Shown here: positions 5,388-60,670 of the stretch, piece by piece | Layout: every line of letters begins with the position of its first letter | Numbering within the stretch: position 1 is the stretch's first letter | NCBI RefSeq assembly: GCF_005222755.1 | Contig: NZ_STGD01000015.1 | Span: 62,001-126,000 of the forward strand | DNA: 64,000 nucleotides | Origin: Roseomonas sp. HF4 | Lineage (GTDB): Bacteria > Pseudomonadota > Alphaproteobacteria > Acetobacterales > Acetobacteraceae | Reading direction: 5' to 3' | Translations under genes and position numbers: made by a program | The notes under the pieces: generated by a model | Databases searched by the model: none | Seen by the model: the letters and a program-made list of their open reading frames with translations, nothing else | What the model was told of the DNA's origin: nothing

Positions 5388-5532
5388 ATACCAACGGTCG
5401 AATTCTTCGACCGGTTGGTATCCGCCTTTGCCGACCCTCAGACGCCAGGCGGAAACCTTCGGCTTCCTTGGCGTCGCCGGTCTCCCGGCGGCGCCCGTTC
5501 GGGCGCTCGGCACGAGTCAAGCGCTCGTGCCG
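5388..5532. repeat. Cluster of three further hairpins
   Basis: Three stem-loops lie one after another in the convergent gap. Stem 5388-5402 / 5406-5421 is 15 bp with one bulged base (ATACCAACGGTCGAA paired with TTCGACCGGTTGGTAT). Stem 5491-5497 / 5500-5506 is GCGCCCG/CGGGCGC. Stem 5508-5516 / 5524-5532 is CGGCACGAG/CTCGTGCCG. The last lies just beyond the oxidase stop and may terminate that gene. The long palindrome looks like a REP-type dispersed element, but no second copy is present in this window. Confidence 0.5.
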
Positions 5533-5538
5533 TGGGTA

Positions 5539-17712: not shown

Positions 17713-20700
17713 TCAGTAGGCCTCGGCAACTTTCATCTCCTGCTGGCGATCCATCAGGCTCGCGAGCGCCGGCCTGCCGAAGCGATGGAACAGGAGGGGC
17801 GTGAGGAAGGTGTCAAGCAACGTCGCGGTTACCAGTCCGCCAAAGATCGTGACGGCGACGGGGTGGAGGATCTCCTTGCCGGGTTCGCTGGCGCCGATCA
17901 TGAGCGGGACGAGCGCAAAGCCCGCTGACAGTGCGGTCATGAGAACTGGCGTGAGACGCTCCAAGCTACCGCGCACCACAAGCCCGAGGCCCCAAGGCTC
18001 GCCCTCGAGCAGGGCCAGGTTCAGATAATGACTGACCTTCAGGATCCCATTGCGTGCGGCGATACCGGCCAGCGTGATGAATCCGATCATGGAGGCGACC
18101 GATAGCGGCTGGCCCGCGATCCAAAGCGCCGCAATGGCGCCCACCAGCGCCAGCGGCACATTACCCATGATGATCAGCGCCAGGACTGCTGAGCGATATC
18201 GGCTGTAGAGCACCATGAAGATCAGCGTCAGCGAAACAAGTGAGAGCATGGCAATCAGGCGGGTTGCTTCCTCCTGCGCCTGAAACGTACCTTCGAGCGC
18301 GAAGAAGTAGCCCGGCGGGAGCGGCGCATTGGCCATCTCCGTGCGGATGCGCTGCACGATCGCCGCCGTGTCGCTCCCATCGGTATTCGCCAGCACCACG
18401 ATGCGCCGCCGCCCGTTCTCCCGCAGGATCTGGTTCGGACCGTCGGTATCGCGTACCTCGGCCAGCAGCGAGAGGGGAACACGCCCACCCGGTGTCTCGA
18501 TCATGATCGACGACAGCCCGCTGCCGGTGCGGTCCTGGTCGGCAAGCCGCATGACAAGGTCGAAGCGGCGGGCACCGTCAACAACCTCGCTGACGACCTG
18601 GCCGCCGGACATGTCCTGCACCGCCTGGCCGATCGTCGCGGCCGAGACGCCGTGAAGCGCCGCGCGTTCGTGATTGACCGTCACTTGCAGCTGCGGGACG
18701 CGCACCTGCCGTTCGATCTGCAGGTCGCGCAATCCTGCCACTCCGGCCAATCGCTGCTGCATCTGCTCGGCGATGGTGCGCAGGGTGTCGAGGTCGTCGC
18801 CGTAGATCTTCAGCGCGATCTCCGCCCGAACGCCCGAGAGCATGTGGTCGAGCCGGTGTCCGATTGGCTGGCCGATATTCAGACTTCCGGGAATGATTCC
18901 GAGGCGCGCGCGGATATCCGCGGCAATCTCCTGCTTGCCACGGCCGGAAGGGTGCAGCGTGACGTCGATCTCCGAGGAATGGACGCCTTCGGCATGTTCA
19001 TCGAGTTCGGCGCGGCCGGTTCTTCGGCCAACCGACCGCACCTCAGGCACCTGCATGATCAGCCGTTCCGCGGCCGTGCCCAGGCGGTTGGCCTCGGCCA
19101 GGCTGATGCCTGGCTGGAACTGCAGGCTGATGGTGAGCGTGCCTTCGTTGAAGGGCGGCAGGAAGGCGCGCGGCAGGAATGGCAACGTTGCCACCGCAAC
19201 CGCGATCGCGCCGCCCGCCATGACATACATCAGCCGCTCGCGCCGGAACGCCCACAGCAGCGCGCGCTCGTTGCCGGCCTTCAGCTTGCGCACCATCCAG
19301 CCGTCGCCGTGGTCCATCCGCTTCATCCGCGGCAGCAGGTAGTAGCAAAGCACCGGCGTGACCGTGATGGACACGATCAACGACGCCATGATCGAGACGA
19401 TGTAGGCGACGCCCAGAGGCGCGAACAGCCGGCCCTCAATGCCGGAGAGCGCAAAGAGCGGCACGAAGACGAGGATCACGATCATCGTCGCGTAGACGAT
19501 GCCGGAACGCACCTCCTGGCTTGCCTTGGCGACGACGGTGAAGACCGGCAACGGGTTGCCCTTTTCCCGGTTCTCTCGCAGGCGCCGAAACACGTTCTCG
19601 ACGTCCACCACGGCATCGTCTACCAGCTCGCCGATCGCGATCGCCAAGCCGCCCAGCGTCATGGTGTTGATCGACAGGCCCAGGAGATGGAAGACGACCA
19701 CCGTAATCAGTACCGAGAGCGGGATCGCCGTGAGCGAGATGACCGTGGTTCGCACGTTCAACAGGAACAGGAACAGCACGACCGCGACCACCGCCACCGC
19801 CTCCAGAAGCACGGTCTGGACATTGCCGATCGACGCCTGGATGAAGTCAGCTTGGCGGAATTGAACATTGTCGGCCGTGACGCCCGCCGGCATCACGCGC
19901 TGCAGTTCGCGCAACGCTTCTTCGACCGCGCGGGTAACGACGACCGTGTCGGCATTGGGCTGCTTCTGGATCGACAGGATCACCGCCGGCCGGCCCATGC
20001 TACCGGCCTCGCCGCGCCGCAAGCGTGCCGCGAAGTCCACGCCGGCGACCTGGCGAAGAAGGATGGGCTGGCCATTCCGCAGCGCGATGGGCGCATTGGC
20101 CAGATCCTCGATCCGCGTCGTGCGCCCGATGTTGCGGATGAGGTATTCGCGGCCGGCCTGATCGACGTAGCCGCCGCCGCTATTGGCTCCGAACTGCCGC
20201 AAGGCGGTGACGATCTGCTCATGCGTGATGTCGAGCGCATGCATGCGGGCCACGTCCGGGGTCACGCGATACTGCTTCACCTCACCGCCGATCGGGATCA
20301 CCTGGCTGACGCCCGGGATGGTCAACAGGCGTGGCCGCACGACCCAGTCGGCCAGCTCGCGCAGCTGCATCGGGCTCGCCCGTCCATCGGTGGACATCGC
20401 CACCAGCATGATCTCGCCCATAATCGAGGAGACCGGTGCCATCTGCGGCACGACGTTCGGCGGCAGCTGCGAGCGCACAAGCGAGAGGCGCTCGCCGACC
20501 TGCTGGCGGTTGATCCAGATATCGGTGCCCCAGTCGAATTCGACGAAGACGATCGACAGGCCGACCCCGGACACCGACCGCACGCGGGTCACGCCAGGCA
20601 TGCCGTTGAGGGCAGTCTCAATCGGGAAGGAGATCAGCAGCTCGACCTCTTCCGGTGCCAGCCCCTCGGCCTCGGTCAGCAGGGTGACCACCGGCTTGTT

Positions 20701-20826
20701 GAGATCCGGGAAGACGTCCACGGGCAATTGGCGGAGCGTGAGCGAACCATAGACAACGAGGATGGCCGCTGCTGCGAGGACGAAGAGCCGGTTGCGCAGG
20801 CTCGTCGAGACAAGGAAGTTGAACAT
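17713..20826 (-). CDS. RND heavy-metal efflux pump, CzcA/CusA family
   Basis: Inner-membrane proton-driven pump of 1037 residues, the usual length for heavy-metal RND proteins. The chain shows TM1 near 12-30, a large periplasmic loop, a TM block with IAIGELVDDAVVDVENVFRR in TM4, a second periplasmic loop and the C-terminal TM block ending in a hydrophilic tail. The TM4 acidic pair (DD) is the proton relay. It is the middle of a TolC-adaptor-pump operon. Which metal is moved (Cu/Ag or Zn/Co/Cd/Ni) cannot be fixed from motifs alone; the copper surroundings favour monovalent copper or silver. Confidence 0.93.
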   Translation of the reverse strand: MFNFLVSTSLRNRLFVLAAAAILVVYGSLTLRQLPVDVFPDLNKPVVTLLTEAEGLAPEEVELLISFPIETALNGMPGVTRVRSVSGVGLSIVFVEFDWGTDIWINRQQVGERLSLVRSQLPPNVVPQMAPVSSIMGEIMLVAMSTDGRASPMQLRELADWVVRPRLLTIPGVSQVIPIGGEVKQYRVTPDVARMHALDITHEQIVTALRQFGANSGGGYVDQAGREYLIRNIGRTTRIEDLANAPIALRNGQPILLRQVAGVDFAARLRRGEAGSMGRPAVILSIQKQPNADTVVVTRAVEEALRELQRVMPAGVTADNVQFRQADFIQASIGNVQTVLLEAVAVVAVVLFLFLLNVRTTVISLTAIPLSVLITVVVFHLLGLSINTMTLGGLAIAIGELVDDAVVDVENVFRRLRENREKGNPLPVFTVVAKASQEVRSGIVYATMIVILVFVPLFALSGIEGRLFAPLGVAYIVSIMASLIVSITVTPVLCYYLLPRMKRMDHGDGWMVRKLKAGNERALLWAFRRERLMYVMAGGAIAVAVATLPFLPRAFLPPFNEGTLTISLQFQPGISLAEANRLGTAAERLIMQVPEVRSVGRRTGRAELDEHAEGVHSSEIDVTLHPSGRGKQEIAADIRARLGIIPGSLNIGQPIGHRLDHMLSGVRAEIALKIYGDDLDTLRTIAEQMQQRLAGVAGLRDLQIERQVRVPQLQVTVNHERAALHGVSAATIGQAVQDMSGGQVVSEVVDGARRFDLVMRLADQDRTGSGLSSIMIETPGGRVPLSLLAEVRDTDGPNQILRENGRRRIVVLANTDGSDTAAIVQRIRTEMANAPLPPGYFFALEGTFQAQEEATRLIAMLSLVSLTLIFMVLYSRYRSAVLALIIMGNVPLALVGAIAALWIAGQPLSVASMIGFITLAGIAARNGILKVSHYLNLALLEGEPWGLGLVVRGSLERLTPVLMTALSAGFALVPLMIGASEPGKEILHPVAVTIFGGLVTATLLDTFLTPLLFHRFGRPALASLMDRQQEMKVAEAY

Positions 20827-20838
20827 CCGAGGCGGCCC

Positions 20839-22554
20839 TCAGCGGATCTGCGCGATAAGGCTGGCCGCTTCAGTGACGACACGCTTTCCCGCGTCGAGAC
20901 CTGCGATGACGAGCACGTTGCGTCCGTCGAGCGGCTGCACGCGCACCGGGCGCGGCACGAAGCGCTCGGCCGTCGTCATCTCGAAGACGATGGGCGGGCC
21001 CTCCGCGCTCCGGATCACGGCTTCACCGGGAAGCACGATCCCGGCCGCACGGCGGTTCGTCTGCACCGTCACGGTAACTGGCGTTCCCACCGACAGTCCG
21101 GGCGAAGCGTTCACGATACGAAACTGCAGGGGAACCGCCTGTTGGCGCAATGCAAGGCCGCGTCCAATGAACGCGAGGTCCAGGGTAAGTCCCGCCGAGG
21201 TCGTGGCCCTGGCGCCGGCGATGTCGGCAACCATCCCGCCATCATAGGCAACGGCTTCAACCCATAGGCGGGTCGGCTCGACGATCTCGAAGAGCAGTTC
21301 GCGCGCATCGACGATCTGTCCGCCGACGGCTGCCGCGACGCTGATGAAGCCCGACGCGGTGGCCTGGACGGCCAGCCTGCCGTTCAGGCCCTCGGCCACC
21401 GCGGCCCGGCGGGCGCGCAGCCCGTCAAGCTCCGCGCGTGCCTCGGCGATCTCGCGTGTCGACACGCTGCCCGCCAGGCCTGCAAGACGCTGCGTACGCT
21501 GCTGGGCGATTCCGATCTGCGAGTCGAGCTCGGCGAGGGTCGCCTGCACCCCGCTGCGCTCCTGTGCGCCGAGCACCGGAACGACATAGGCCAGGGTTTG
21601 CCCGCGGTCGACGCGGCTGCCGAGGGCGGGAAATCCCCCCTCCGGCGACTCCACCCGACCGGCCTGGGGCGCCTGAACGCGCCCGGATGCATTCGGATCG
21701 GCGATCACCTGGCCAACCAACTGCAACGAGACGGGCGCGTCGGCGCGGTCGACGATGGTGGCGCGCACGCCGAGCAGTCGCTGCGTCGGCTTCGGGACGA
21801 AGACGCTGCCGTCCGGCTGCCGGCGCGGCTGGTCCAACGGCTGTGCCAGGACCGGCAGCGCTACGAGCGCCAGAATCAGAGCCATCGGGGCAGCTGCTGC
21901 CCGCACCGGCACGCCACCGGCAGCGGCCTTGTGTGGTGTTTCCAGGGCCGGCTCCGCACGCGGCTTGAGCGAGACGGTGTCCGCCGCCACCAACGGCGGG
22001 AGGTTGCGCGGTGCTGCTACCCTGCCAACCAGAACGCCCAGGAGAAGCAGCGCGAGGCCCGCAGCCCAAATCACAGGCTCCACCGCGGCGCGCATCGCTG
22101 TTTCGCGCCAGCCCGGCGCCGCCGCGGCTGCGGCCGCAACGGCCGGGACCTCGATCTCGAACGGCAGCAGATCCACATCGGACCCTGCGGTGATGGTGAA
22201 GATGAGGTTGCGCGGGCCCGCCTGCCCGAGCAGGGGATGGGAGACGACGTAGGTCGCCTCCGCACTGCGGGTGACCGGGACGGATTGCCCGTCGAGCGTG
22301 GCGGTGATCTCGGCGTTGTCGATCGGCTCGGCGGATGCGTAGCGGTCCAGGTAGAGCCAGAGGCGCGCATCCGGACCGAGGACGCCGACGAGATCGAAAA
22401 TGTCGGAATGCGCGATCGCACGCGGAGCGGCGTTGGCGGGTGGCGGTGGCTCCTCGCCATGGCCTTCGTGAGCCAAGGTTACCGGCGCGGCAGTGAGAAG
22501 CGTCAGGAACGTAGCGGCGAACAAGCAGCGAATTAGAGATGTGGCACGCTTCAT
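20839..22554 (-). CDS. RND periplasmic adaptor with an extra N-terminal exported domain
   Basis: A 571-residue membrane-fusion protein joining the pump to the outer-membrane channel. It is longer than the usual 350-450 residues. Residues 1-30 form a signal peptide followed by HEGHGEE. Residues about 45-145 form a beta domain. A TM helix lies at about 163-182 (VIWAAGLALLLLGVLVGRV), then a second hydrophobic stretch at about 222-242 (APMALILALVALPVLAQP) that looks like the original signal of a standard adaptor. After it come the barrel/lipoyl halves (VQAPQAGRVES, SGFISVAAAVGGQIVDAREL) around a coiled hairpin. The layout suggests fusion of two exported proteins. It overlaps the TolC gene by 4 nt. 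Confidence 0.88.
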   Translation of the reverse strand: MKRATSLIRCLFAATFLTLLTAAPVTLAHEGHGEEPPPPANAAPRAIAHSDIFDLVGVLGPDARLWLYLDRYASAEPIDNAEITATLDGQSVPVTRSAEATYVVSHPLLGQAGPRNLIFTITAGSDVDLLPFEIEVPAVAAAAAAAPGWRETAMRAAVEPVIWAAGLALLLLGVLVGRVAAPRNLPPLVAADTVSLKPRAEPALETPHKAAAGGVPVRAAAAPMALILALVALPVLAQPLDQPRRQPDGSVFVPKPTQRLLGVRATIVDRADAPVSLQLVGQVIADPNASGRVQAPQAGRVESPEGGFPALGSRVDRGQTLAYVVPVLGAQERSGVQATLAELDSQIGIAQQRTQRLAGLAGSVSTREIAEARAELDGLRARRAAVAEGLNGRLAVQATASGFISVAAAVGGQIVDARELLFEIVEPTRLWVEAVAYDGGMVADIAGARATTSAGLTLDLAFIGRGLALRQQAVPLQFRIVNASPGLSVGTPVTVTVQTNRRAAGIVLPGEAVIRSAEGPPIVFEMTTAERFVPRPVRVQPLDGRNVLVIAGLDAGKRVVTEAASLIAQIR

Positions 22555-23741
22555 GGTTCGACCCCGATCGCTTGATTGTAGCGTGATATGGCTTGGCGGA
22601 CCGCGACCTGCATCCGCCGACGATCGGCGTCGGCGCCGGCAAGGCTGGTCCGCAGCCGAAGCGTCTCCGCGAGGGTTGTCTGGCCGTCACGGAACGCGCG
22701 CTCTCCCAGGCCCGCGGCTTCCGCGAGCGCCGCATGCCGCTGATCGGCCAAGCGCGCGGCGGCCCGCGCATCGGCCAGGGCTGCGCGGGCCCGCTCCCGC
22801 TCCGCGGTAATGAGGCGATCGACGGCACTGGCTTCTGCGGTTGCGGTGGTGAGTTCACCCTGCGCGGTCGCGCGTCGTTCCGCATTGCGCGGCGGATGAG
22901 CGAACGGTATCCGCACGCGCACGCCGAACCGGGTGTCCCATCCGGAATCACGGTCGTCGCGCTCTTGCCGCATGAACGCCCCTATCTCCGGGCTTTCGCG
23001 GTCTTCGACCTCGGCAATTCGAATGCCGGCGCGGGCGACGTCGAGCCCGAGCCGTGCGGCGACGATGCGGGGATGCTCGGCAGGCGCGGCAGCGTCGCGC
23101 AACACTTCCTGCGATCCAGGCGCGGGATCACGTCCGGTCAGCGCGCGAAACGCGATCCGTGCCTCGCGGACAGCGGCCTCGGCTTCGCGCAATGCGCCCT
23201 CGCTTTCCCTGGCATCTGCGGTCGCGAGCAGTTCCTCCGCCCGAGAGACCTGGCCGGCCCGAGCCTGGCGCGTGACGTCGCGCGTCAGCGCCGCCGTGCT
23301 CGCCGTTCGCGTTCGTGCCGCGGCCAGGGCGGCCTCCGCGGCCGCCCAGGTCCAGTACGCGTCACGAACCTCAGCGGCGATAGCCAGGCGACGAGCCGCA
23401 ATTTGCGCCGCAAGACGCTGACCTTCAGCATCGGCGAGACCACGCTGTGCGCGAGACTGCCCTGGAAGCCACACCGGGACGCCGACCTCCAGTTCGGCTT
23501 CGCGAAAGCCACGATTTTGGGTGAAGCGATCGGTGGTGTAGCCCAGCCCTACACTGGGAGCCCCGGGTGTCAGCGAATTGGCGCCGCGCAGCCGTGCATC
23601 GATCGCTGCACGCTGCGCCTCGAGTGTCCGCAGTTCGGGGTTCAGTGCGGCCGCAGCTTCGAAAGCGTCGCGCAACGGACTGGCATGCGCCGTGGCGATA
23701 CCGCCCGCTAGCACGGCAGCCAAGATGAACCGAATCAGCAC
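22551..23741 (-). CDS. TolC-family outer-membrane efflux protein
   Basis: A 396-residue outer-membrane channel subunit. It has a signal peptide (FILAAVLAGGIATAHA) and two tandem coiled-coil repeats typical of TolC/CzcC proteins (for example LRTLEAQRAAIDARLRGAN and the long Ala/Glu/Arg helix near 130-200, then a second set near 260-370). It is the first gene of the operon and its stop overlaps the adaptor start. The promoter region upstream holds a cop-box-like half-site pair at 23814-23829. Confidence 0.88.
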   Translation of the reverse strand: MLIRFILAAVLAGGIATAHASPLRDAFEAAAALNPELRTLEAQRAAIDARLRGANSLTPGAPSVGLGYTTDRFTQNRGFREAELEVGVPVWLPGQSRAQRGLADAEGQRLAAQIAARRLAIAAEVRDAYWTWAAAEAALAAARTRTASTAALTRDVTRQARAGQVSRAEELLATADARESEGALREAEAAVREARIAFRALTGRDPAPGSQEVLRDAAAPAEHPRIVAARLGLDVARAGIRIAEVEDRESPEIGAFMRQERDDRDSGWDTRFGVRVRIPFAHPPRNAERRATAQGELTTATAEASAVDRLITAERERARAALADARAAARLADQRHAALAEAAGLGERAFRDGQTTLAETLRLRTSLAGADADRRRMQVAVRQAISRYNQAIGVEP

Positions 23742-24016
23742 TGAATCCCCTTCCGCGTCGCCCCTGTGCGGACGGGTATGGCGACCTCACGCGAACGGGT
23801 CTTTTCCCGATCATGACAAAGTATTGCAAAACGGGAGGCTCGCTGGTGCGCCGGGCTCAGGCGCTGAAGTCGTGCACGCAACGCTGCGGTCAGTCGTCAT
23901 CGCCTTGCACAGCAGACTCCGCGCCGCAGATCGAAGAGAACGAACGCAGTGCGGCGCATCATGACGACGTTCACCGATGCCAGCCGGGCGAGGCGACATC
24001 AGGGTTGAGATTCCGC
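23742..24016. other. Divergent intergenic region, no gene recognised
   Basis: About 275 bp between the minus-strand efflux operon and the plus-strand copZ promoter. Small frames here have no family features and no good ribosome site. It holds the cop-box-like element (23814-23829) near the efflux side and otherwise shows nothing I can name. Confidence 0.5.
23814..23829. promoter_or_regulatory. Degenerate cop-box-like site upstream of efflux operon
   Basis: TGACA-AAGTAT-TGCAA has a perfect left half and a 3/5 right half of the TGACA/TGTCA dyad also seen at 15103-15117. It lies 73 bp upstream of the TolC-family gene. Control by the local response regulator is an inference. Confidence 0.35.
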
Positions 24017-24041
24017 TTGACCCTGCCAACGTGGGAGGGAC
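24017..24041 (+). promoter_or_regulatory. MerR/CueR-type promoter dyad for copZ-copA-cueR
   Basis: A TTGACC -35 element at 24017-24022 runs into an imperfect dyad, GACCCTGCC-AACGT-GGGAGGGAC (7 of 9 positions pair), within the expected long spacer of a MerR-type promoter. It lies about 40 bp before the copZ start. CueR encoded at the end of the operon is the obvious regulator. Confidence 0.7.
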
Positions 24042-24081
24042 GACGAAGGCGTCTCCCGCAGCTTCTGAACAGGAGACACAC

Positions 24082-24282
24082 ATGCAGCACTTCAACGTTC
24101 CGGATATGACCTGCGGCCATTGCGTGAAGACGATCACGCAGGCCGTGCAATCGGTTGACGCGGCGGCGCAGGTCCAGGCGGACCTCGCCACGCACAGCAT
24201 AAGCGTGACCAGCAGCGCGAGCGCGGCCAGCCTCGCGGCCGCCATCGCCGCCGCTGGCTACGCCAACACCCCCCGGGCCTGA
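24082..24282 (+). CDS. copZ: CopZ-type copper chaperone (HMA domain)
   Basis: A 66-residue stand-alone heavy-metal-associated domain with the ferredoxin-like ordering and Cu(I) site MTCGHC at residues 9-14. It passes Cu(I) to the CopA ATPase encoded 16 bp downstream. AGGAG lies 8 bp before the ATG. Longer frames starting at 23977 would run through the regulatory dyad and add non-conserved sequence, so I chose 24082. Note that the usual Lys/Tyr after the metal loop is replaced by AGYANT near the end, a normal variation. Confidence 0.9.
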
Positions 24283-24298
24283 GGCAGGAGCAGCCGGG

Positions 24299-26839
24299 AT
24301 GGCCCCAGACACCAACGTCAAGGAGTGGATGCCCGCGCTCGCGGCCTCCACCTCCACTTCGCTGGACGCAACGCTCTCGGTCCCGATCGAGGGAATGACC
24401 TGCGCGTCCTGCGTGCGCCGCGTCGAGCGGGCCATCGCGGCCGTGCCCGGCGTGGCCGACGCCTCTGTGAACCTCGCGACCGAGCGTGCGGAGGTGCGCT
24501 TCGACGGCGCGCCGGACCTCGCGGCGGTGCTCGGCGCCGTTAGTGGGGCTGGCTACGACATCGGCACCGAGGCGACCGACCTCGCCGTGGAGGGCATGAC
24601 CTGCGCCTCCTGCGTCGGCCGCGTCGAGCGGGCGCTCAAGGCCGTGCCCGGCGTGACGGAGGCCGTGGTGAACCTCGCCACCAACCGCGCCCGCGTCACG
24701 CACCTGCCCTCGGTCACTGCGGCAACGCTGATCGAGGCGGTGCGCAAGGCGGGCTACGGCGCCGAGCGCATCGGTGATGAAATCCCATCCGACCGTGGCG
24801 ACCGCGAGCGCGCCGCGCGCTCGGCCGAGATCCGCGGCCTAGCGCGCAGCCTTGGCCTCGCCGCGGTCCTGACCGCGCCGCTGGTGGTGCTGGAAATGGG
24901 CGCGCATCTCTCGATGCCGCTGCACCACGTGATCCGTGACAGCATCGGTTTCGCGCTGAGCTGGCAGATCCAGTTCGTGCTGGCAGCACTCGTCATGTTC
25001 GTCCCCGGCCTGCGCTTCCAGACCAAAGGCTGGCGTGCGCTGCTGCGCGGCGCGCCCGACATGAACTCGCTGGTCGCGATCGGCACCGGCGCGGCCTTCG
25101 TCTATTCCACCGTCGCAACTTTTGCACCCGCCCTGCTGCCGGAAGGCGCGCGACACGTCTTCTTCGAGGCGGCGGCGGTGATCGTGACGCTGATCCTGCT
25201 CGGCCGCTGGCTCGAGGCGCGGAGCAAGGGCCGCACGTCGGAGGCGATCCGGCGGCTGATGGGCCTGCAGCCGCCCACCGCGCGCGTGCTGCGCGACGGG
25301 CAGGAGCAGGAGATCCCGGCGGCGGAACTGCTGACCGGCGACATCGTCCTGGTGCGGCCGGGCGAGCGCATCCCCGCCGATGGCGAGGTGACCGACGGCG
25401 CCTCCTTCGTGGACGAGGCGATGATCACCGGCGAGCCCGTGCCGATGGAGAAGACCCCTGGCGCGCGCGTGACCGGCGGCACGGTGAACGGCACCGGCGC
25501 CTTCCGCTTCCGCGCCACCGCCGTGGGCGGGGAGACGGTGCTCTCGCAGATCGTCCGCATGGTCGAGCAGGCGCAGGGATCGAAGCTGCCGATCCAGGCG
25601 CTGGTGGACCAGGTGACGATGTGGTTCGTCCCCGCGGTGCTCGCCATCGCGGCGCTGACCTTCGGCGTGTGGCTGTTGTTCGGCCCCGATCCGGCGCTGG
25701 CTTTCGCGTTGGTGAACGCGGTCGCGGTGCTGATCATCGCCTGCCCCTGTGCGATGGGCCTGGCGACGCCGACCTCGATCATGGTCGGCACCGGTCGCGC
25801 GGCGGAGCTCGGCGTGCTGTTCCGCAAGGGCGAGGCGCTTCAGTCCCTGCGGGACGTTGAGGTCGTCGCTCTCGACAAGACCGGCACGCTCACGGAAGGC
25901 CGCCCGACCCTGACCGACCTCGCGGTCGTGCCGGGCGAGGATGAGGCCGCGATCCTGACGCTCGTCGCCGCGGTGGAGGCACAGTCCGAGCACCCGGTCG
26001 CCCAGGCCATCGTCGCCGCGGCGCGGGCGCGCGGGCTGGTCCTGCCGGAGGCGACGGCCTTCGAGGCCGTGCCCGGCTACGGCGCGACCGCGCTGGTGGA
26101 CGGGCGGCGCGTCGCGGTCGGCGCAGACCGCTATATGGCGCGGCTCAGCCTCGACGTCGCGCACTTCGCCGCCACGGCGGCCGCGCTCGCGGACCAGGGC
26201 CGCACGCCGCTCTACGCCGCGGTGGATGGGCGCCTCGTCGCGGCGCTCGCGGTGGCCGATCCGGTCAAGCCGGGCACGCCGGCGGCTCTCGCCGCGCTGC
26301 GGGCACAGGGGCTGCACATCGCTATGGTGACCGGCGACAACCGGCGCACGGCGGAAGCGATCGCCCGCGGCCTCGGCATCGATGAGGTGGTCTCCGAGGT
26401 GCTGCCGGACGGCAAGGTTGCCGCCGTGCAGGGCCTGCGTGAGGGCGGGCGGAAGGTCGCCTTCGTCGGTGACGGCATCAACGACGCGCCGGCGCTTGCC
26501 GCCGCCGATGTCGGCCTCGCGGTCGGCACCGGCACGGACATCGCGATCGAGAGCGCCGACGTGGTGCTGATGTCGGGCGACCTCGGCGCGGTGGCGACCG
26601 CCTTCGGGATCAGCCGGGCCACCATGGCGAACATCCGGCAGAACCTGTTCTGGGCCTTCGCCTACAATGTTGCGCTGATCCCGGTCGCCGCGGGCATACT
26701 CTGGCCTTTCGGCGGCACGCTGCTCTCGCCCATGTTGGCGGCGGGGGCGATGGGGCTCAGCAGCGTCTTCGTGCTGGCGAATGCACTCCGGCTGCGGCGG
26801 TTCCAACCCGCCGCAGCCACCGCGCGGGAGGATGCGTGA
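24299..26839 (+). CDS. copA: Copper-exporting P-type ATPase CopA
   Basis: A Cu(I)-exporting P1B-1 ATPase of 846 residues. Two N-terminal HMA domains carry GMTCASC at residues 32-38 and 99-105. The transmembrane metal motif is CPC ([15 protein letters not shown]), and [20 protein letters not shown] and [10 protein letters not shown] mark the actuator, P and N domains. Length and order match CopA/CueA. AGGAG precedes the ATG. The next gene (cueR) begins on its stop codon. It complements the CopB-type (CPH) pump elsewhere in the island, giving two classes of copper ATPase. Confidence 0.96.
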
Positions 26840-27315
26840 TGAACATCGGCGATGCGGCGAAGGCCTCGGGCGTCTCGGTGAAGATGATCCGCCACTACGA
26901 GGCGATCGGCCTGCTGCCGGCGGCGACGCGGACCGAGAGCGGCTACCGCGTCTACCGACCCGAGGATGTGCACGCGCTGAGGTTCGTCCGAAATGCTCGC
27001 GACCTTGGCTTCGCGCTCGCGGAGATCGAGGAGCTGCTTGGCTTGTGGCGAGACAGGGAGCGAAGCAGTGCGGACGTGAAACGTCTTGCCCTTGGCCATC
27101 TCGCGACGATCGAACAGAAAGTCAGGGCGTTGCAGGCAGTCGGTGAGACTCTGCGACACCTTGCGAAAGCCTGCCACGGAGATGGCCGGCCCGAGTGCCC
27201 GATCCTGCAGGGTCTTTCCGAACGCGAGCCGCCAGCGGCGCCCTCGGCGACGCGCGCCTCACGGTCCGGAGGAGGACTGCGACACAGCGGGATCAGCGCC
27301 GAACCGCGCGGGTGA
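26839..27315 (+). CDS. cueR: Cu(I)-responsive MerR regulator CueR
   Basis: A 158-residue MerR activator: [23 protein letters not shown], wing ESGYRVY, a dimerisation helix at about 78-110, and the metal loop with Cys112 and Cys120 in ACHGDGRPECPIL. The 7-residue spacing and position are those of CueR, which selects Cu(I)/Ag(I)/Au(I). The ATG lies in TGATG at the copA stop, so translation is coupled. It should activate the dyad promoter at 24017. The C-terminal 25 residues after the loop are a Ser/Arg/Gly-rich extension. Confidence 0.93.
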   Translation: MNIGDAAKASGVSVKMIRHYEAIGLLPAATRTESGYRVYRPEDVHALRFVRNARDLGFALAEIEELLGLWRDRERSSADVKRLALGHLATIEQKVRALQAVGETLRHLAKACHGDGRPECPILQGLSEREPPAAPSATRASRSGGGLRHSGISAEPRG

Positions 27316-55491: not shown

Positions 55492-55667
55492 GGCGAGCAC
55501 TTAGCCGAGCCCGGCAGTCGTGATGTCCAATCGGATTTGGGTCTACCAGCGTTGGCGGCGCAGGGTGCCAACGATGACCCTATCGGTAGCGTTACCTGCT
55601 GGTCGCGACCATTCCAACCGAACCAGCCCGCTCTCGAGTGGCTCAACCCATGAATGCCGGTGCTGGA

Positions 55668-55713
55668 TTTGCTTGCACAGGGCGAATGGTATGATTATCT
55701 TACCGCACGTAAG
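55668..55713 (+). promoter_or_regulatory. Extended -10 promoter and operator-like dyad before the ACP-like gene
   Basis: TTTGCT (55668-55673), a 16-bp spacer, then TGG-TATGAT (55687-55695) form a good extended -10 sigma-70 promoter. Directly after it, CTTAC-CGCAC-GTAAG (55699-55713) is a perfect 5-bp dyad covering the expected transcription start, where a repressor would block the promoter. The XRE protein at 56042 is the obvious candidate. This supports the downstream ATG (55732) as start of the first gene. Confidence 0.6.
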
Positions 55714-55731
55714 AACCCGGAGCGGAAGGCG

Positions 55732-56034
55732 ATGGACGCCGGCCATGTCAGGAAAGAGCTGATCACCATCCTGGGCCAGATCCAGGCGATGAGCGGTCTG
55801 GCGTGCCCCGCCCTCACCGGCGCCAGCGTTCCGATCACGGATCTCGACAAGTTCGACAGCAAGATCTGGCCCGTGGCAACCGGAATGCTTGCTGCGACCC
55901 TCAACGTGGAAATCCCCAACAACGTGAACATCTTCAGTACGCGCGGCGCCTGCCGCACGCCCCTCAGCATCGATCAGGCGGTCGCCGAAGTTTGCCGTGT
56001 CGCGTCCTCGGCCACCCCGGTTGCGGCGGAGTGA
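55732..56034 (+). CDS. Acyl-carrier-protein-like protein
   Basis: A 100-residue protein with the ACP four-helix layout: helix I (VRKELITILGQIQAMSGL), a loop with VPITDLDKF, the phosphopantetheine site DS at Ser43 (FDSKIW in place of ADSLDT), helix II (ATGMLAATLNVEIP), a variable loop and helix III (LSIDQAVAEVC). The acidic DSL motif is weakened to DSK and the surface is less acidic than FabACP, so it is a specialised carrier. GGAAGG precedes the ATG. It is the first gene of the operon, and a holo-ACP-synthase-like gene lies at the far end of the locus. The assignment is from pattern, not alignment, so I hold it as probable. Confidence 0.65.
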   Translation: MDAGHVRKELITILGQIQAMSGLACPALTGASVPITDLDKFDSKIWPVATGMLAATLNVEIPNNVNIFSTRGACRTPLSIDQAVAEVCRVASSATPVAAE

Positions 56035-56041
56035 GGCGGCC

Positions 56042-56416
56042 ATGACCGAGCAGCAGGATCCCGCGCGGCGCGCGCAGCTGGCCGCCCGCATCAAGGAGGC
56101 GCGGACGATGGCCGGGCTCTCGCAGGGCCAAGTGGCGCGCATGCTCGGCCTCCATAGGCCTTCGGTGTCCGAGATCGAGGCGGGCAACCGCCGCGTCACG
56201 GCCGAGGAGCTGACCCGGATGGCGGAGATTTTCGACGTGGGCGTGTCGTGGCTCGTCGGCGAAGCGCCGGACACGATCGCGCCCGACGATCCCCGGCTGC
56301 AGCTCGCCGCACGCGAGCTCGGCAAGCTCAAGCCGGCCGACCTCGACCGCCTCATGGCCCTGCTCGCCGCGATGCGGCGCTCGGAAGACGACGGGGAGGG
56401 CGAGAGCCAGCCGTGA
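56042..56416 (+). CDS. XRE-family regulator paired with ImmA-like protease
   Basis: A 124-residue protein with an N-terminal XRE HTH (ARIKEARTMAGLSQGQVARM, LGLHRPSVSEIEAGNRRVTA, EELTRMAEIFDVGVSWLVGE) and a helical tail rich in Leu/Arg/Glu. Its stop overlaps the next start as GTGA. XRE-ImmA/IrrE pairs are common switches of mobile and defence genes, in which the protease cleaves the repressor on a stress signal. The dyad at 55699-55713 is its likely operator. Confidence 0.88.
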   Translation: MTEQQDPARRAQLAARIKEARTMAGLSQGQVARMLGLHRPSVSEIEAGNRRVTAEELTRMAEIFDVGVSWLVGEAPDTIAPDDPRLQLAARELGKLKPADLDRLMALLAAMRRSEDDGEGESQP

Positions 56417-57306
56417 TCGTGACTCCGAAGACCAAGATGCTGCCCGATCGCCGTGCCCTCACGCAACAAGCTATGCAGGCCTCCATCCGGGCGCGGCAGG
56501 TGGCCGGCCTCGACCTGCACAGCCCGATCTGTATCTACGGGCTCTCCGAAGCGCACCGGGTGACGGTCCGCTTCAACGACATCGCGAGCATGGAGGGGAT
56601 GTACGAGCGCGGATCTCCGTCGCGCATTCACCTCTCCGCGCTGCGCCCCCTGCCACGGCGGGCGTACAACTGCGGCCACGAGCTAGGGCATCATGTCTTC
56701 GGGCACGGCTCCACCATCGACGAGCTGCGCGAGGACGTGGCAGGCGGCGCGCACAGCAGCCCGAACGAGATCCTCGCCGACGCCTTCGCGGCCTTCGCGC
56801 TGATGCCGACGCTCGGCGTCCGCCGCGGCTTCGCGGCCCGGGGCGGGGCGCCGGCGTCGGCGACGCCGCGGCAGGTCTTCGCGGTCGCCTGCGAGTTCGG
56901 CGTCGGGTACGCCACCCTAGTCACCCACCTCGCCTACGCCCTGGGCGAGATGCCGCGCGCGCACGCGGCGCGGCTCCTCCGCGCGACGCCCCGCTCGCTG
57001 CGCGAGGAAATCCTCGGCGCGGTCACGCCCAGCCCGCTCGTGGTGGCCGACCACCACTGGGCGGCGCCGACCCTCGACGCGGAGGTCGGCACGCTGCTCC
57101 TCCTTCCGCCGGGCACGCAGGTCGCGGGGGCCGTCGCGGCGGCCGAGGGCAGCACGGGGTCGGGCTCCCTCTTCCGCGCGGTCTCCCCGGGCGTGGCGCG
57201 CGCGACTGTCCCCGGAACGCCGTGGGCGACCTTCGTGCGTGTCGCGCGGCCCCACTACGTCGGCCTCGCGCAGTACCGGCACCTGGAGGACCACGATGAC
57301 GACTAG
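56413..57306 (+). CDS. ImmA/IrrE-family zinc metallopeptidase
   Basis: A 297-residue protein. The peptidase domain has zinc motif HELGH at residues 89-93 (NCGHELGHHVFGHGS) and the third-ligand helix PNEILADAFAAFALMP at about 117-132. The C-terminal ~150 residues form a separate part (AHAARLLRATPRSLREEILG, LDAEVGTLLLLPPGTQVAGA) ending in a small beta domain, as in ImmA proteins with a sensory tail. GTG start at 56413 overlaps the XRE stop; longer frames overlap that gene and are rejected. It probably cleaves or releases the XRE repressor upon a trigger. Confidence 0.88.
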   Translation: MIVTPKTKMLPDRRALTQQAMQASIRARQVAGLDLHSPICIYGLSEAHRVTVRFNDIASMEGMYERGSPSRIHLSALRPLPRRAYNCGHELGHHVFGHGSTIDELREDVAGGAHSSPNEILADAFAAFALMPTLGVRRGFAARGGAPASATPRQVFAVACEFGVGYATLVTHLAYALGEMPRAHAARLLRATPRSLREEILGAVTPSPLVVADHHWAAPTLDAEVGTLLLLPPGTQVAGAVAAAEGSTGSGSLFRAVSPGVARATVPGTPWATFVRVARPHYVGLAQYRHLEDHDDD

Positions 57307-58129
57307 CGTTGCGCCCCTCCCCTTCGTCGCCGAGGAGAGCAGCGTGTCCCGCGCGTGGGCGCGCGCCTTCCTGCGCGTGATGGACAACCCCGGCACGGAG
57401 ATTTCCCCGCTCGTCGTCAGCATCGACGGCTTCGGGCCCGGGGGCGAGATCCCCGAGGACGGGGCGATGCGGGCGGCGATGGACGCCGCCCTCGTCGCCG
57501 CAGGCGAGCGCTGGGACGTGGAAACGGTCGCCTTCACGATCTTCCCGGAGCGCTACTGGCGCATGGCGCAGGGCGACCGGGCGAAGTTCTTCGATCTGTG
57601 CCGCCGCGCCCTGCCGCGCCTGATGGCGATGAACCCGGCCTCGAACCGGCGGGGCCTCTACTTCGGGCGCCTGGTCGCCTACGGGTCCGGCCCGTGCGGC
57701 GGCAACCAGTTGGAATGGGTGCTGTCGCAGTATCTCGGTCGGACGGGGGTGCGGCGTTCCATGCTCCAGGCCACCACCTTCGACCCCGCGCGCGACCACG
57801 TTCCGGACGCGCAGCTCGGCTTCCCGTGCCTCCAGCAGGTCAGCTTCGTCCCCACCGACGACGGCGGCCTCGTCGTCAACGCCTTCTATGCGACGCAGCA
57901 GCTCTTCCACCGGGCGTATGGCAACTATCTCGGCATCGCCCAGCTCGGCGCCTTCATGGCGCGCGAGATGAAGCTCCGGCTCGCACGGGTGAACATCACG
58001 GTGGGGATCGAGAAGCTTGACCGTCCCGGGAAGACCAGTCCCCACCTCGTGCCGCTGACCTCGGCCGCCCGCGCCTGCCTGTCGCCCGCGGCGACGCCGG
58101 CGCGGACCGGGGCGCTGGCCGTCGCGTGA
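57296..58129 (+). CDS. Divergent thymidylate-synthase-like protein
   Basis: A 277-residue protein of the thymidylate synthase fold. Visible in order: YFGRLVAYGSGPCGGNQLEW (active-site loop and dimer helix), GVRRSMLQATTFDPARDHVP (the Arg pair that holds the phosphate of the partner subunit), then FPCLQQVSFVP with the catalytic Cys178, and LFHRAYGNYLGIAQLGAFMA with Asn210 matching the pyrimidine-binding Asn. The YQRS motif after the Cys is changed to FYATQQ and the final H-x-Y segment is not evident. The Cys chemistry (C5 addition to a pyrimidine) is therefore probable, but ordinary dUMP methylation is less so. GGAGG precedes the ATG, and an 11-bp overlap with the protease gene supports coupling. 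Confidence 0.75.
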   Translation: MTTSVAPLPFVAEESSVSRAWARAFLRVMDNPGTEISPLVVSIDGFGPGGEIPEDGAMRAAMDAALVAAGERWDVETVAFTIFPERYWRMAQGDRAKFFDLCRRALPRLMAMNPASNRRGLYFGRLVAYGSGPCGGNQLEWVLSQYLGRTGVRRSMLQATTFDPARDHVPDAQLGFPCLQQVSFVPTDDGGLVVNAFYATQQLFHRAYGNYLGIAQLGAFMAREMKLRLARVNITVGIEKLDRPGKTSPHLVPLTSAARACLSPAATPARTGALAVA

Positions 58130-60243
58130 AGCGCCCGAAGCCGCCGGGGGGGGCGACGGGCCGCCCGCGCGGGCGACCGCGGAAGCCAGCATCTGGGGAG
58201 GGCACGCCGCAGGCGGCCTTCGCGCTTCCGGTGCCGGCGGGACCGCGGCCCGCGCCGCCGCTCGCCCTGCCCAAGGCCGTCTATTCCAAACATCTGGCGC
58301 CGGCGCGCGTCACCGAGGTGTACGACAGCTACTGGCACTTCGCGGTGGAGCGGCAGCGCGTGTTTTTCCGCAGGCTCGCGGGCGAGCGCCCCCCGTGGAC
58401 GGGGGACCCCGTCATCGGCGGGTACCGCTTCACCAACGCGTACCGCGCGTCGGACCGGGTGAGCCAGTACCTCATCCGCAACGTGATCTACCGCGAGGAC
58501 CTGCCCTCGTCGGACGAGGAGGTCTTCTTCCGCATCCTGCTCTTCAAGCTTTTCAACCGGGTCGAGACCTGGGAGCTGCTGGAGGCCACGTTCGGCGCGG
58601 TGACGTGGTCGGACTACCGCTTCGACCTTTACGACGCCGCCCTCGCGCGCGCGCTGCGCGGCGGCACGAGGATCTACTCGGCCGCCTACATCATGCCCCC
58701 GGGCGGTTCGACCTTCGGCTATCCCGCGAAGCACCAGAACCACCTCCGGCTGCTGGAGGCGATGATGCGCGCGGGCACCCCCGCGCGGCTGCGCGGCGCG
58801 CGGCGGATGCAGCAGGCGTTCGACCTGCTCCGCTCCTTCCCAACTATTGGCGATTTCCTCGCCTACCAGTTCGTGACGGACATCAACTACAGCCAGCTGA
58901 CCGACTTCTCCGAGATGGAGTTCGTCGTGCCGGGCCCGGGCGCGCGGGACGGGCTGAGCAAGTGCTTCGCCAGCGGCGGCGGCCTCAACGAGGCGGAGCT
59001 GATCCGTCTCGTCGCGGACCGGCAGGAGGAGGAATTCGAGCGCCTCGGCCTGGATTTCCCCTCGCTCTGGGGCCGCCGCCTCCAGCTCATCGACTGCCAG
59101 AACCTGTTCTGCGAGATCAGCAAGTACGCCCGCGTCGCGCATCCCGACATCTCCGGGGTCGCGGGCCGCACCCGGATCAAGCAGCGCTTCGCCGCGAGCG
59201 CGGCTCCTCTCGCGCCCCCCTGGTACCCACCGAAGTGGGGCCTCGACACCTCTGTCGCGCCTAGCCCCGCCGAACAACGCGCGGAAAGTCTGATTATTGC
59301 CTCGAGGAGACCGACTATGGACATGCGCACCTACCAGCGAGAGGCGCGGGCGACCGACCGCGTGCCACTGACCGCATCCGGCACCGTCGATCCCGTGGCC
59401 GGCCTTATCGTGCCCCTGCTCGGCCTCGCGGGCGAGACGGGCCAGCTCCTCAGCGAGTACAAGAAGCACCTTCGCGACCGCGACGCGCACCTCATGTTCA
59501 AGGAGCGGGTCGCCGAGGAGCTGGGTGACCTCCTCTGGTACGTTGCCAACGTCGCCAGCAAGTTCGATCTCGATTTGGCCGAGATCGCGGCGGCGAACCT
59601 GGAGAAGACGCAGGGGCGCTGGGGCGCGAGGCCCGATGCTCCGCATATCTTCGACGAGGGGTACCCCGAGCACGAGCGCTTCCCGCGGCGCTTCGAGGTC
59701 GAGATGTACGAGACCGTGGTCGAAGGGAAGGTCAAGGTGCGAGTGCTGCTCAACGGCTCGCCTCTGGGCGCAGATCTTACTGACAACGCCTATGATCCAG
59801 ACGGCTACCGCTTCCACGATGTGTTCCACATGGCCCTGGTGGCGGTGCTGGGTTGGTCGCCCGTTGTGCGTTCGCTGATGAAGCGCAAGCGCAAGAGCAG
59901 GCCGAAGGTGGATGAGGTCGAGGACGGCGGGCGCGCGCAGGTGATCGAGGAAGGCGTCTCGGCGCTGGTCTTCGACTATGCCCGCGCGCACAGCTTCCTC
60001 GAAGGGGTCCGCGACCTCGACTACGAGCTCCTCAAGACCGTCGCGAGCATGACGCGCCACCTTGAGGTCTCGCGGTGCAGCCTCGGCGACTGGCAGCGGG
60101 CCATCCTGTATGCCTACGGGGTGTGGCGGGAGATAGTGAAACATAGCGGGGGTCGGGTACTTGTAGACCTCGACCAGCGCGCCATTCGCTTCCTGGGCGC
60201 TTCGGACGCTGGGGCGACAGAGGCGATAGTCGCCGACGCGTGA
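58126..60243 (+). CDS. Fusion of HMUDK/thymine-pyrophosphorylase-like helical domain and MazG pyrophosphohydrolase
   Basis: A 705-residue protein from GTG 58126, overlapping the previous stop as GTGA. Residues 1-55 are basic and low-complexity. Residues about 60-370 match the family annotated as 5-hmdU DNA kinase helical domain or alpha-glutamyl/putrescinyl-thymine pyrophosphorylase: YRFTNAYRASDRVSQYLIRN, FFRILLFKLFNRVETWELLE, IYSAAYIMPPGG, KHQNHLRLLEAMM, a helix-hairpin-helix-like VVPGPGARDGLSKCF and DCQNLFCEISKYARVAHP. Residues about 398-530 form a MazG domain with GLAGETGQLLSEYKKHL and the metal motif RVAEELGDLLWYV; the last ~180 residues (LTDNAYDPDGYRFHDVFHMA, GWSPVVRSLMKRKRKSRPKV) are the C-terminal domain of this MazG type. 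The MazG part starts MDMRTYQREA at 59317 with GAGGAG 7 bp upstream, so it may also be made alone. Confidence 0.8.
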   Translation: MKRPKPPGGATGRPRGRPRKPASGEGTPQAAFALPVPAGPRPAPPLALPKAVYSKHLAPARVTEVYDSYWHFAVERQRVFFRRLAGERPPWTGDPVIGGYRFTNAYRASDRVSQYLIRNVIYREDLPSSDEEVFFRILLFKLFNRVETWELLEATFGAVTWSDYRFDLYDAALARALRGGTRIYSAAYIMPPGGSTFGYPAKHQNHLRLLEAMMRAGTPARLRGARRMQQAFDLLRSFPTIGDFLAYQFVTDINYSQLTDFSEMEFVVPGPGARDGLSKCFASGGGLNEAELIRLVADRQEEEFERLGLDFPSLWGRRLQLIDCQNLFCEISKYARVAHPDISGVAGRTRIKQRFAASAAPLAPPWYPPKWGLDTSVAPSPAEQRAESLIIASRRPTMDMRTYQREARATDRVPLTASGTVDPVAGLIVPLLGLAGETGQLLSEYKKHLRDRDAHLMFKERVAEELGDLLWYVANVASKFDLDLAEIAAANLEKTQGRWGARPDAPHIFDEGYPEHERFPRRFEVEMYETVVEGKVKVRVLLNGSPLGADLTDNAYDPDGYRFHDVFHMALVAVLGWSPVVRSLMKRKRKSRPKVDEVEDGGRAQVIEEGVSALVFDYARAHSFLEGVRDLDYELLKTVASMTRHLEVSRCSLGDWQRAILYAYGVWREIVKHSGGRVLVDLDQRAIRFLGASDAGATEAIVADA

Positions 60244-60253
60244 CGGGCCAAGC

Positions 60254-60670
60254 TTAGCTGCGAACTTGGTCGCCGCATCCGGGGCGTTCGCCGACTGCCA
60301 CGGCAACGGCGGTCGCATACCCGCCGGCACAGCTGATACTGACAAACCAGCGAGAAACATCCACTGCCGCGGTAGCTGCCACGTTGTAGAGGATGACTGA
60401 CGGCGCGCCCGAGGGGGATGTCAGAACCTCGATGTCAGTCCAAGCGATGCCGTCTCCCCAACCGATGCCGAGAGCTTTGACCACAGCCTCCTTTGCCGCG
60501 AATCGGCCCGCGAGACGCGGAGCGCGACGGGCGGATTGACCGGCGAACGCGAGCTCCGCCTCCGTGAAATAGCGAGATACAAAGCCACCGCCCGATTCAG
60601 ATATGATGCGCACAATACCGGCGATTTCTACCAAATCAATTCCAACACCAATAATACGACATCTCAGCAT
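60254..60670 (-). CDS. Holo-ACP-synthase-like 4'-phosphopantetheinyl transferase
   Basis: A 138-residue protein of AcpS type. It begins MLRCRIIGVGIDLVEIAGIV, in which Asp in GIDLVEI is a metal ligand, and has ELAFAGQSARRAPRLAGRFA followed by AKEAVVKALGIGWGDGIAWT, where Glu in the AKEA motif completes the metal site, and the strand DIEVLTSPSGAPSVIL. It would transfer phosphopantetheine to a carrier protein, most simply the ACP-like protein of the same locus. Convergent with the operon, 10 bp from it. Start ATG 60670 has only a weak ribosome site; a TTG start at 60709 is possible. Base composition is lower in GC than neighbours, which suggests separate acquisition. Confidence 0.85.
   Translation of the reverse strand: MLRCRIIGVGIDLVEIAGIVRIISESGGGFVSRYFTEAELAFAGQSARRAPRLAGRFAAKEAVVKALGIGWGDGIAWTDIEVLTSPSGAPSVILYNVAATAAVDVSRWFVSISCAGGYATAVAVAVGERPGCGDQVRS

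Follow-up and report, generated by a model that had tools for sequence, protein, structure and literature searches.

The 64,000-nucleotide stretch of Roseomonas sp. HF4 DNA analysed here (contig NZ_STGD01000015.1; hereafter the window) carries a compact cassette of six genes, among them a carrier protein resembling acyl carrier protein (ACP), a divergent thymidylate synthase (TS)-like enzyme and an AcpS-type phosphopantetheinyl transferase. The cassette is conserved, linked to an operator-like palindrome and, here, located on a conjugative element. An earlier note, made from the letters of the window, had placed these six genes at these positions, and both the sequence and the family profiles agree with it. 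The features, with the evidence for each, are as follows.

55687..55705, no strand: operator-like palindrome TGGTATGATTATCTTACCG, 17 of 19 positions as in the cross-phylum consensus
55732..56034, plus strand: ACP-like carrier protein of 100 residues, with a DSK motif holding the phosphopantetheine serine (relatives, profile)
56042..56416, plus strand: XRE-family repressor, CapH-like (HTH_3, 2.8e-15)
56413..57306, plus strand: ImmA/IrrE metallopeptidase, CapP-like, with an HELGH motif (Peptidase_M78, 6.6e-9)
57296..58129, plus strand: divergent TS-like enzyme with a conserved Cys178 (TIGR03283, 3.0e-7)
58126..60243, plus strand: fusion protein of 705 residues, with HMUDK_hel at 58312-59154, MazG at 59425-59619 and MazG_C at 59641-60195 (Pfam)
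60254..60670, minus strand: AcpS-type phosphopantetheinyl transferase, convergent with the other genes (TIGR00516, 2.5e-22)

The first five genes are closely coupled: 7 bp separate the ACP and XRE genes, and the overlaps are 4 bp (XRE/ImmA), 11 bp (ImmA/TS) and 4 bp (TS/fusion). The surroundings are those of a mobile element, as had been claimed; nine of the ten flanking proteins tested belong to conjugation or element families (TrbI, CagX, VirB8, CagE/TrbE, T2SSE, the type IV secretion system coupling protein, DUF3363, RPA and DUF736), and the tenth gave an HTH_17 match only.

When an alignment of the TS-like protein was scanned against 84,980 species, each represented by a single genome, at least 80 loci were found, and the counts below describe the 80 that were listed. 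The partner profiles were built from the window proteins. As TS was the anchor of the scan, the counts refer to its partners and not to those of HMUDK_hel in general. The ACP was present in 72 of the 74 loci with more than 1.9 kb upstream (it is missing from L072 and L079, and the match in L021 is partial), XRE in 73 (72 at the core, as the L072 match lies more than 6 kb away) and ImmA in 72. Among the 73 loci with more than 3.2 kb downstream, HMUDK_hel was found in 73, MazG_C in 62 and AcpS in 57. Gene order and strand are nearly constant, and the ACP gene lies directly upstream of XRE wherever both are found at the core; the exceptions include AcpS on the plus strand (L015, L017, L024, L047 and L053) or upstream (L063), and HMUDK_hel on the minus strand (L060, L084, L085 and L087). 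A check set in advance, on whether homologous loci regularly lack the ACP and AcpS genes, found the two to be conserved partners and not chance neighbours of the TS-like gene.

Judged by record title, the 80 loci come from 11 named phyla: Pseudomonadota (47), Cyanobacteriota (16), Acidobacteriota (6), Planctomycetota (3) and, with one locus each, Binatota, Bacillota, Chloroflexota, Verrucomicrobiota, Actinomycetota, Armatimonadota and Myxococcota; one locus is unplaced. The Bacillota locus L027 groups among the Pseudomonadota rows on the TS tree, and because of this placement and the many metagenome bins, some of these phyla may reflect contamination. The cassette is also found on plasmids: four carry a close relative of TS (49-56% identity), the same four are the ones with an ACP relative by tblastn, and all four are typed as conjugative. 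On two rhizobial plasmids the set is complete and includes a convergent acpS, and two cyanobacterial plasmids carry it with no acpS nearby, either annotated or by profile.

HMUDK_hel was found in five of the 398 Pseudomonadota genomes searched, in three of them within the cassette (the own genome; L124, without AcpS; and L125, whose contig stops short of the ACP position) and in two, L126 and L127, with other partners. ACP matches occurred in four of 385 genomes of the class: the two strong ones (the own genome and G188) adjoin a TS-like gene, and the two weak ones (1.5e-4 and 3.5e-4) come from genomes with no TS-like match and look like ordinary carriers. The pairs L124/L011, L129/L012, G188/L012 and G649/L011 are very likely the same records and not independent finds.

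Variant loci retain the same nucleus. A second locus type, represented by L009 (3581-6720), L128 (4567-7717) and the viral contig L179 (8014-10907), has a papain-like protease gene between those for ImmA and the TS-like enzyme, the members tested for the papain match being those of L009 and L179. In L009 and L128, the order is ACP-like open reading frame (ORF), XRE, ImmA, protease and TS, the carrier being assigned by its position and a DSL motif (that of L128, the one tested, had no Pfam hit). HMUDK_hel is absent from the 12.7 kb of L009, which do contain MazG_C, and from the fetched 8-kb stretch of L128; L179 carries HMUDK_hel and another TS on the opposite strand. Two Streptomyces plasmids show ACP, XRE, ImmA and TS, and encode HMUDK_hel and MazG_C on the opposite strand. 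In the viral contig L177 (2926-8075), the same four genes are followed by a thymidylate-kinase/HMUDK_hel gene and a radical-SAM gene (3.3e-19). Thus ACP, XRE, ImmA and TS stay together in each of the variants L009, L128, the Streptomyces plasmids and L177.

The suggestion that XRE and ImmA form a switch has gained in strength. In PADLOC models, the XRE protein matches capH (1.2e-15) and the ImmA protein matches capP (2.4e-13), the HExxH motif of ImmA is found in 84 of 85 loci, and a palindrome, TGGTAAGATTATCTTACCA, is conserved just upstream of the ACP gene. Among the 79 loci with 150 bp upstream, it occurs with at least 15 of 19 positions in 63, where 100 base shuffles gave 0.02 loci on average; at 13 or more positions, a level without a control, it is found within those 150 bp in 78, the miss being L021. 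The copy in the window, at 55687-55705, had an expected number of 0 in window shuffles. With up to three mismatches allowed, the 5.3-Mb own genome contains it at a single site, which, being palindromic, is read on both strands. It overlaps a TATGAT that reads like a -10 element; the promoter scan reported none there. The palindrome, which from its sequence and position we describe as operator-like, is a new finding of this analysis. According to PMC13373217, single-stranded DNA (ssDNA) activates CapP, CapP cleaves CapH, and immune operons are under the control of the two. By analogy with this pair, XRE and ImmA very likely control the cassette through the palindrome, and we have fair confidence that expression would be induced by ssDNA or DNA damage.

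We rejected the idea that the operator is a phage-borne signal. Its 17-mer core, with A or T at one position, occurs in 35 viral stretches, which were read as chance occurrences, no chance expectation having been computed for them; as fetched, these stretches have no match to ACP, XRE, ImmA, TS, HMUDK_hel or AcpS, and L173 matches MazG_C.

The 63 of 79 loci with the palindrome and the 72 of 74 with the ACP also refute the view that unrelated cargo genes came to lie together by chance. Only the two informative loci L072 and L079, which have neither ACP nor ImmA beside TS, speak for it, and we give it practically no credence. The position of the ACP gene directly upstream of XRE would suit a different arrangement, in which the ACP is a part of the switch, senses the acyl-CoA or phosphopantetheine state and tunes XRE-ImmA, with TS, HMUDK_hel and MazG doing the work. 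Against this, both of the strong ACP matches in the 385 genomes adjoin TS, in a survey that did not search for ACP genes beside TS-less XRE-ImmA pairs; we regard such a role as quite improbable.

The ORF of the carrier opens at 55654 and runs over the operator. Since the relatives and the operator position point to the ATG at 55732, the opening at 55654 is probably not the true start. The window protein alone had no match in Pfam, NCBIfam or PHROGs. Its family profile gave 26 matches in PDB at E values up to 10, and in the best of them (0.0021) the DS motif is aligned. Nineteen bear the name of acyl carrier protein, one is unnamed, four are unrelated, and the remaining two, NDUAB1-alpha and erythronolide synthase, we take to be carriers. 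Searched with PF00550, the divergent members L007 (9.1e-8, over the cut-off) and L091 (4.2e-4) matched and L128 did not. The phosphopantetheine serine is present in 82 of 84 alignment rows, in which the window is counted twice, through L001; L021 has a gap, and L086 a threonine. Canonical ACPs have leucine after this serine, and in the 84 rows the following residue is lysine in 42 and leucine in 11. As a side observation, L086 retains AcpS despite the threonine in its carrier (5438-5722).

The AcpS of the window scores 79.5 bits with TIGR00516, over the cut-off of 59.8, and carries the motifs GVGIDL and RFAAKEA, strict patterns of which are found in 47 and 49 of 62 loci; its start was taken as the first methionine ahead of the conserved region. 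Elsewhere in the own genome there is a second PF01648 match, and of six PF00550 matches none lies in the window. AcpS accompanies none of nine canonical DSL carriers vs 62 of 69 non-DSL carriers (Fisher 6e-8, uncorrected for kinship); five of 83 loci that end too soon had been dropped beforehand, and L021, with its unreadable motif, is counted in both the 62 and the 69. This suggests that carriers which the host AcpS cannot read tend to bring a private AcpS. The serine motif is present, and we are confident that the ACP would be a substrate of the adjacent AcpS.

Profile searches also uphold the assignment of the fourth protein to the TS superfamily, through TIGR03283, the PDB profile match and hhalign. 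The TIGR03283 match scores 30.2 bits, far below the model cut-off of 174.55, and Pfam gave no match to the protein. The best PDB profile match of the family is the CMP 5-hydroxymethylase MilA (E 0.011); hhalign against a two-sequence profile of hydroxymethylase-like TS proteins gave E 7.8e-5 and a probability of 61.6%, with three control profiles at 0.14 or above. The AlphaFold model is confident (predicted local distance difference test, pLDDT, 93.4; predicted template modelling score 0.90). Cys178 and Asn210 occur in every one of 60 rows, and Asn210 aligns opposite the aspartate that MilA has at its base-reading position. TS has asparagine at that position, which points to a uracil-type base for the enzyme of the cassette. 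In the T4 dCMP hydroxymethylase, Asp179 reads cytosine, and there is a precedent, in a TS-fold enzyme, for a C5 exocyclic methylene intermediate that is attacked by water (PMC6400193). We consider C5 chemistry by the TS-like enzyme probable.

The TS-like protein is unlikely to stand in for ThyA. ThyX (PF02511, 1.0e-56) is present in the host and, judged from gene content, makes its dTMP, and PF00303 was found in none of nine genomes of the genus, its own included, although this profile also misses the TS-like gene of the window and so is blind to such divergent members. For the same reasons, the gene is unlikely to be a housekeeping one.

In the fusion protein, Pfam finds HMUDK_hel (PF18723, 4.1e-109), MazG (PF03819, 8.1e-5) and MazG_C (8.3e-79). 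The MazG match reaches 23.3 bits against a cut-off of 22 and is backed by a family-profile match to the MazG-like PDB entry 2q73 (8.7e-6). HMUDK_hel (modelled at 58240-59286) is predicted by AlphaFold to be all but wholly helical (pLDDT 92.0), and no credible PDB relative was found for it by sequence. Comparison with an HhH-GPD DNA-glycosylase fold was made and rejected: hhalign against profiles from 12 glycosylase ORFs gave probabilities of at most 0.2%, no better than the controls. The helical part of the HMUDK assignment made in the earlier note thus stands, and its kinase part was not found in the window protein, in which Pfam shows no P-loop kinase domain and whose ORF lacks the Walker A pattern. 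Such a pattern occurs in the ORFs of 13 of 88 relatives, the window not among them, and in both relatives tested it belongs to a thymidylate-kinase domain (L045, 3.6e-16; L177, 9.6e-18). In seven plasmid loci that have both halves, HMUDK_hel and MazG_C are annotated as separate genes.

The route to thymine hypermodification to which the note had linked these families is incomplete at this locus, since none of the six proteins matches a pyrophosphorylase or glycosyltransferase family. A search for aGPT-Pplase3 (PF18746) gave no match in six genomes, but its control also matched nowhere. A rival proposal is that the cassette hypermodifies DNA and so shields the mobile element from restriction after its entry as ssDNA, serving anti-restriction and not host defence. 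HMUDK_hel takes its name from a DNA kinase domain of phages, ssDNA transfer would trigger a CapP-like protease, and the four plasmids with an ACP relative are typed as conjugative. In the viral contig L180 (252-3458), HMUDK_hel adjoins genes that, from their translations, read like queuosine/7-deazaguanine DNA-modification genes, and one that reads like a phosphoribosyltransferase. Yet no kinase was found in the window protein, the six proteins gave no transferase or pyrophosphorylase match of this route, and the likeness of HMUDK_hel to HhH-GPD glycosylases was looked for and not found; we judge this proposal improbable.

Depletion of deoxynucleoside triphosphates is a known defence principle, and the same enzymes could be read in this way: MazG and the TS-like protein, joined in relatives by a dCTP-deaminase-like protein, would drain dCTP/dUTP/dTTP in the course of infection, and the ACP would be minor or regulatory. 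The frequency of MazG_C (62 of 73 loci) and of a DCD-type family (3.8e-16) near 19 loci agrees with it. Such a system would have no need of a dedicated ACP with its own AcpS, yet the ACP is found in 72 of 74 loci, and we think depletion an unlikely account of the cassette.

The reading that we prefer is that of a previously undescribed, CapH/CapP-type inducible mobile operon in which uracil-nucleotide chemistry takes place on a holo-carrier, probably in conflict with phages or other elements; as a whole, we hold its prospects to be evenly balanced. XRE bound to the palindrome ahead of the ACP gene would keep the operon off until ImmA, activated by ssDNA or DNA damage from a phage or an incoming element, cleaved XRE, as we infer from CapH and CapP. 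AcpS would place phosphopantetheine on the dedicated ACP; the TS-like cysteine would activate the uracil ring at C6 for chemistry at C5, with the substrate or product held on the ACP. MazG and MazG_C, together with the dCTP-deaminase-like and thymidylate-kinase-like domains of relatives, may tune the pool of nucleotides, either feeding the product or removing it. The likely outcome would be a C5-modified uracil nucleotide or base by which the replication of a phage or rival element is hindered.

This reading is based on the conserved cassette and its order, the carrier serine, the AcpS/motif counts, the TS profiles, the operator and the CapH/CapP matches, as well as on the persistence of an ACP-like ORF beside XRE-ImmA-TS even in the L009/L128 type. 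The conjugative plasmids and the AbiEii (10 loci) and patatin (8 loci) families among the neighbours, for which there was no control set, also speak for it, and we lean towards a conflict role with some assurance. We are more tentative about the ACP holding the substrate or product of the TS-like enzyme, which is possible rather than probable. We speculate, at long odds, that after folate-dependent methylene transfer, the C5 exocyclic methylene of uracil may be trapped by the phosphopantetheine thiol of holo-ACP, so that the nucleotide is tethered to the protein through C5, or that C5 may be acylated by acyl-ACP, with later processing and release as an antiviral nucleotide or base. Such tethering would explain why the core has no loading enzyme, why ACP and TS are kept together in each locus type seen and why a private AcpS is kept. 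If so, it would be the first carrier-protein-based nucleotide chemistry in a conflict system known to us.

Several points weigh against this interpretation. No match to a ketosynthase, acyltransferase or ligase was found in the six proteins (Pfam/NCBIfam); with no core gene to load the ACP, a host enzyme, direct transfer of acyl-phosphopantetheine or a bare thiol must be assumed, and the ACP could serve the switch instead of the enzyme. The AcpS/motif link comes down to two starred independent pairs (three in all) and is not significant on the tree, and seven loci (L004, L011, L022, L048, L071, L074 and L078) have a non-DSL carrier and room for AcpS, and no AcpS. The operator is absent (9-12 of 19 positions) from six divergent loci. 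The likeness of the TS-like protein to two canonical ThyA sequences was weak in hhalign (E 0.012, probability 3.5%). The phosphate-binding arginine of TS (Arg166 in E. coli) precedes Ser167, and the residue aligned with it is alanine, within Tyr-Ala-Thr, in 82 of 89 loci, as placed by a MilA alignment with an E value of only 0.011; substrate binding would thus differ from that of ThyA, and the usual dUMP may not be the substrate. PMC5175136 names MilA Ala176 and TS Ser167 as a pair of positions. Finally, no phage test of the operon was found.

Compared with described systems, the cassette resembles the CapH/CapP immune operons, of the cyclic-oligonucleotide-based antiphage signalling system (CBASS) and others, in having an XRE repressor and an ImmA-type protease near the operon front; it differs in that the ACP precedes the pair and in that its six proteins include no cyclase, Cap effector or bacteriophage exclusion (BREX) match. 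Specifically for CBASS, neither a CD-NTase nor a Cap effector was found among the six. With phage thymine hypermodification by the 5-HMUDK route, it shares a TS-fold C5 enzyme, HMUDK_hel and, in some relatives, a kinase, whereas no P-loop domain was found in the window protein and no pyrophosphorylase match in the six proteins, and the cassette is here carried by a conjugative element. MilA, of mildiomycin biosynthesis, is the best PDB profile match of the TS-like family, albeit with an E value of 0.011 only, and unlike it the family has the uracil-type asparagine in place of aspartate. The AcpS-ACP pairs of fatty-acid and polyketide synthesis likewise combine an AcpS-family enzyme with a serine-bearing carrier, but there is no ketosynthase, acyltransferase or ligase here, and lysine commonly follows the serine. 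E. coli systems that include TS and a 5-hydroxymethyldeoxyuridine (5-hmdU) kinase domain protect against phage, and MazG and MazG-C are listed as predicted, unvalidated defence domains, in the main text of PMC13092281. The likeness to these validated DefensePredictor systems is in the domain types TS and 5hmdUk; the terms 'acyl carrier' and 'phosphopantetheine' are absent from that main text. In the open-licence literature, no title or abstract start was found that describes the combination of ACP, transferase, TS, ImmA and defence.

The cassette links three fields, namely, inducible control of phage defence, pyrimidine C5 chemistry and carrier-protein biosynthesis, whose meeting was, to our knowledge, not previously recognized. 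If the proposed chemistry is correct, it would add both a route to modified nucleotides and a principle of defence, each of them new; even if it is not, the private ACP-AcpS pair is of interest as a natural and possibly orthogonal carrier system. The palindrome serves as a DNA signature for the main type of system, and the cassette, with its own operator-like site, is open to testing. The gene set travels between very different bacteria.

Further families lie near the loci outside the core; one member of each was tested and there was no control set, so that the counts are suggestive only. They are dCTP-deaminase-like proteins (19 loci; the tested member is the DCD match given above), a metallophosphatase-TS fusion (10), AbiEii (10), DUF6088/AbiEi-like proteins (8), patatin phospholipases near AcpS (8) and DUF1643 (7). 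The patatin-family gene is on the same strand as the nearby AcpS in L062, L064-L069 and L073, the tested member being that of L064. In L032 (505-2817), a metallophosphatase match (7.5e-14) is joined to a weak thymidylate-synthase match (9.2e-4, below the cut-off), in the family found near 10 loci. In L177, the gene at 313-2433 reads like a phage structural protein and has no Pfam hit.

HMUDK_hel was also seen in other company. In L127 (7085-14066), its neighbours include Nmad2 (5.1e-66), a ThsB-type TIR gene (1.1e-21) and an ORF reading like a TS of the hydroxymethylase type, and this locus may be related to those DefensePredictor systems that have TS, 5hmdUk and NMAD domains. L006 has HMUDK_hel and MazG_C beside CBASS phospholipase and TIR genes. 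In L126 (5767-8182), a protein of 196 residues with no Pfam hit, an ORF reading like a dCTP deaminase and HMUDK_hel stand in a row, with no ACP or TS match within 15 kb. Away from the cassette, the region 17713-27315 of the window reads, from translations only, like an RND efflux pump, a copper-type P-type ATPase and a MerR regulator.

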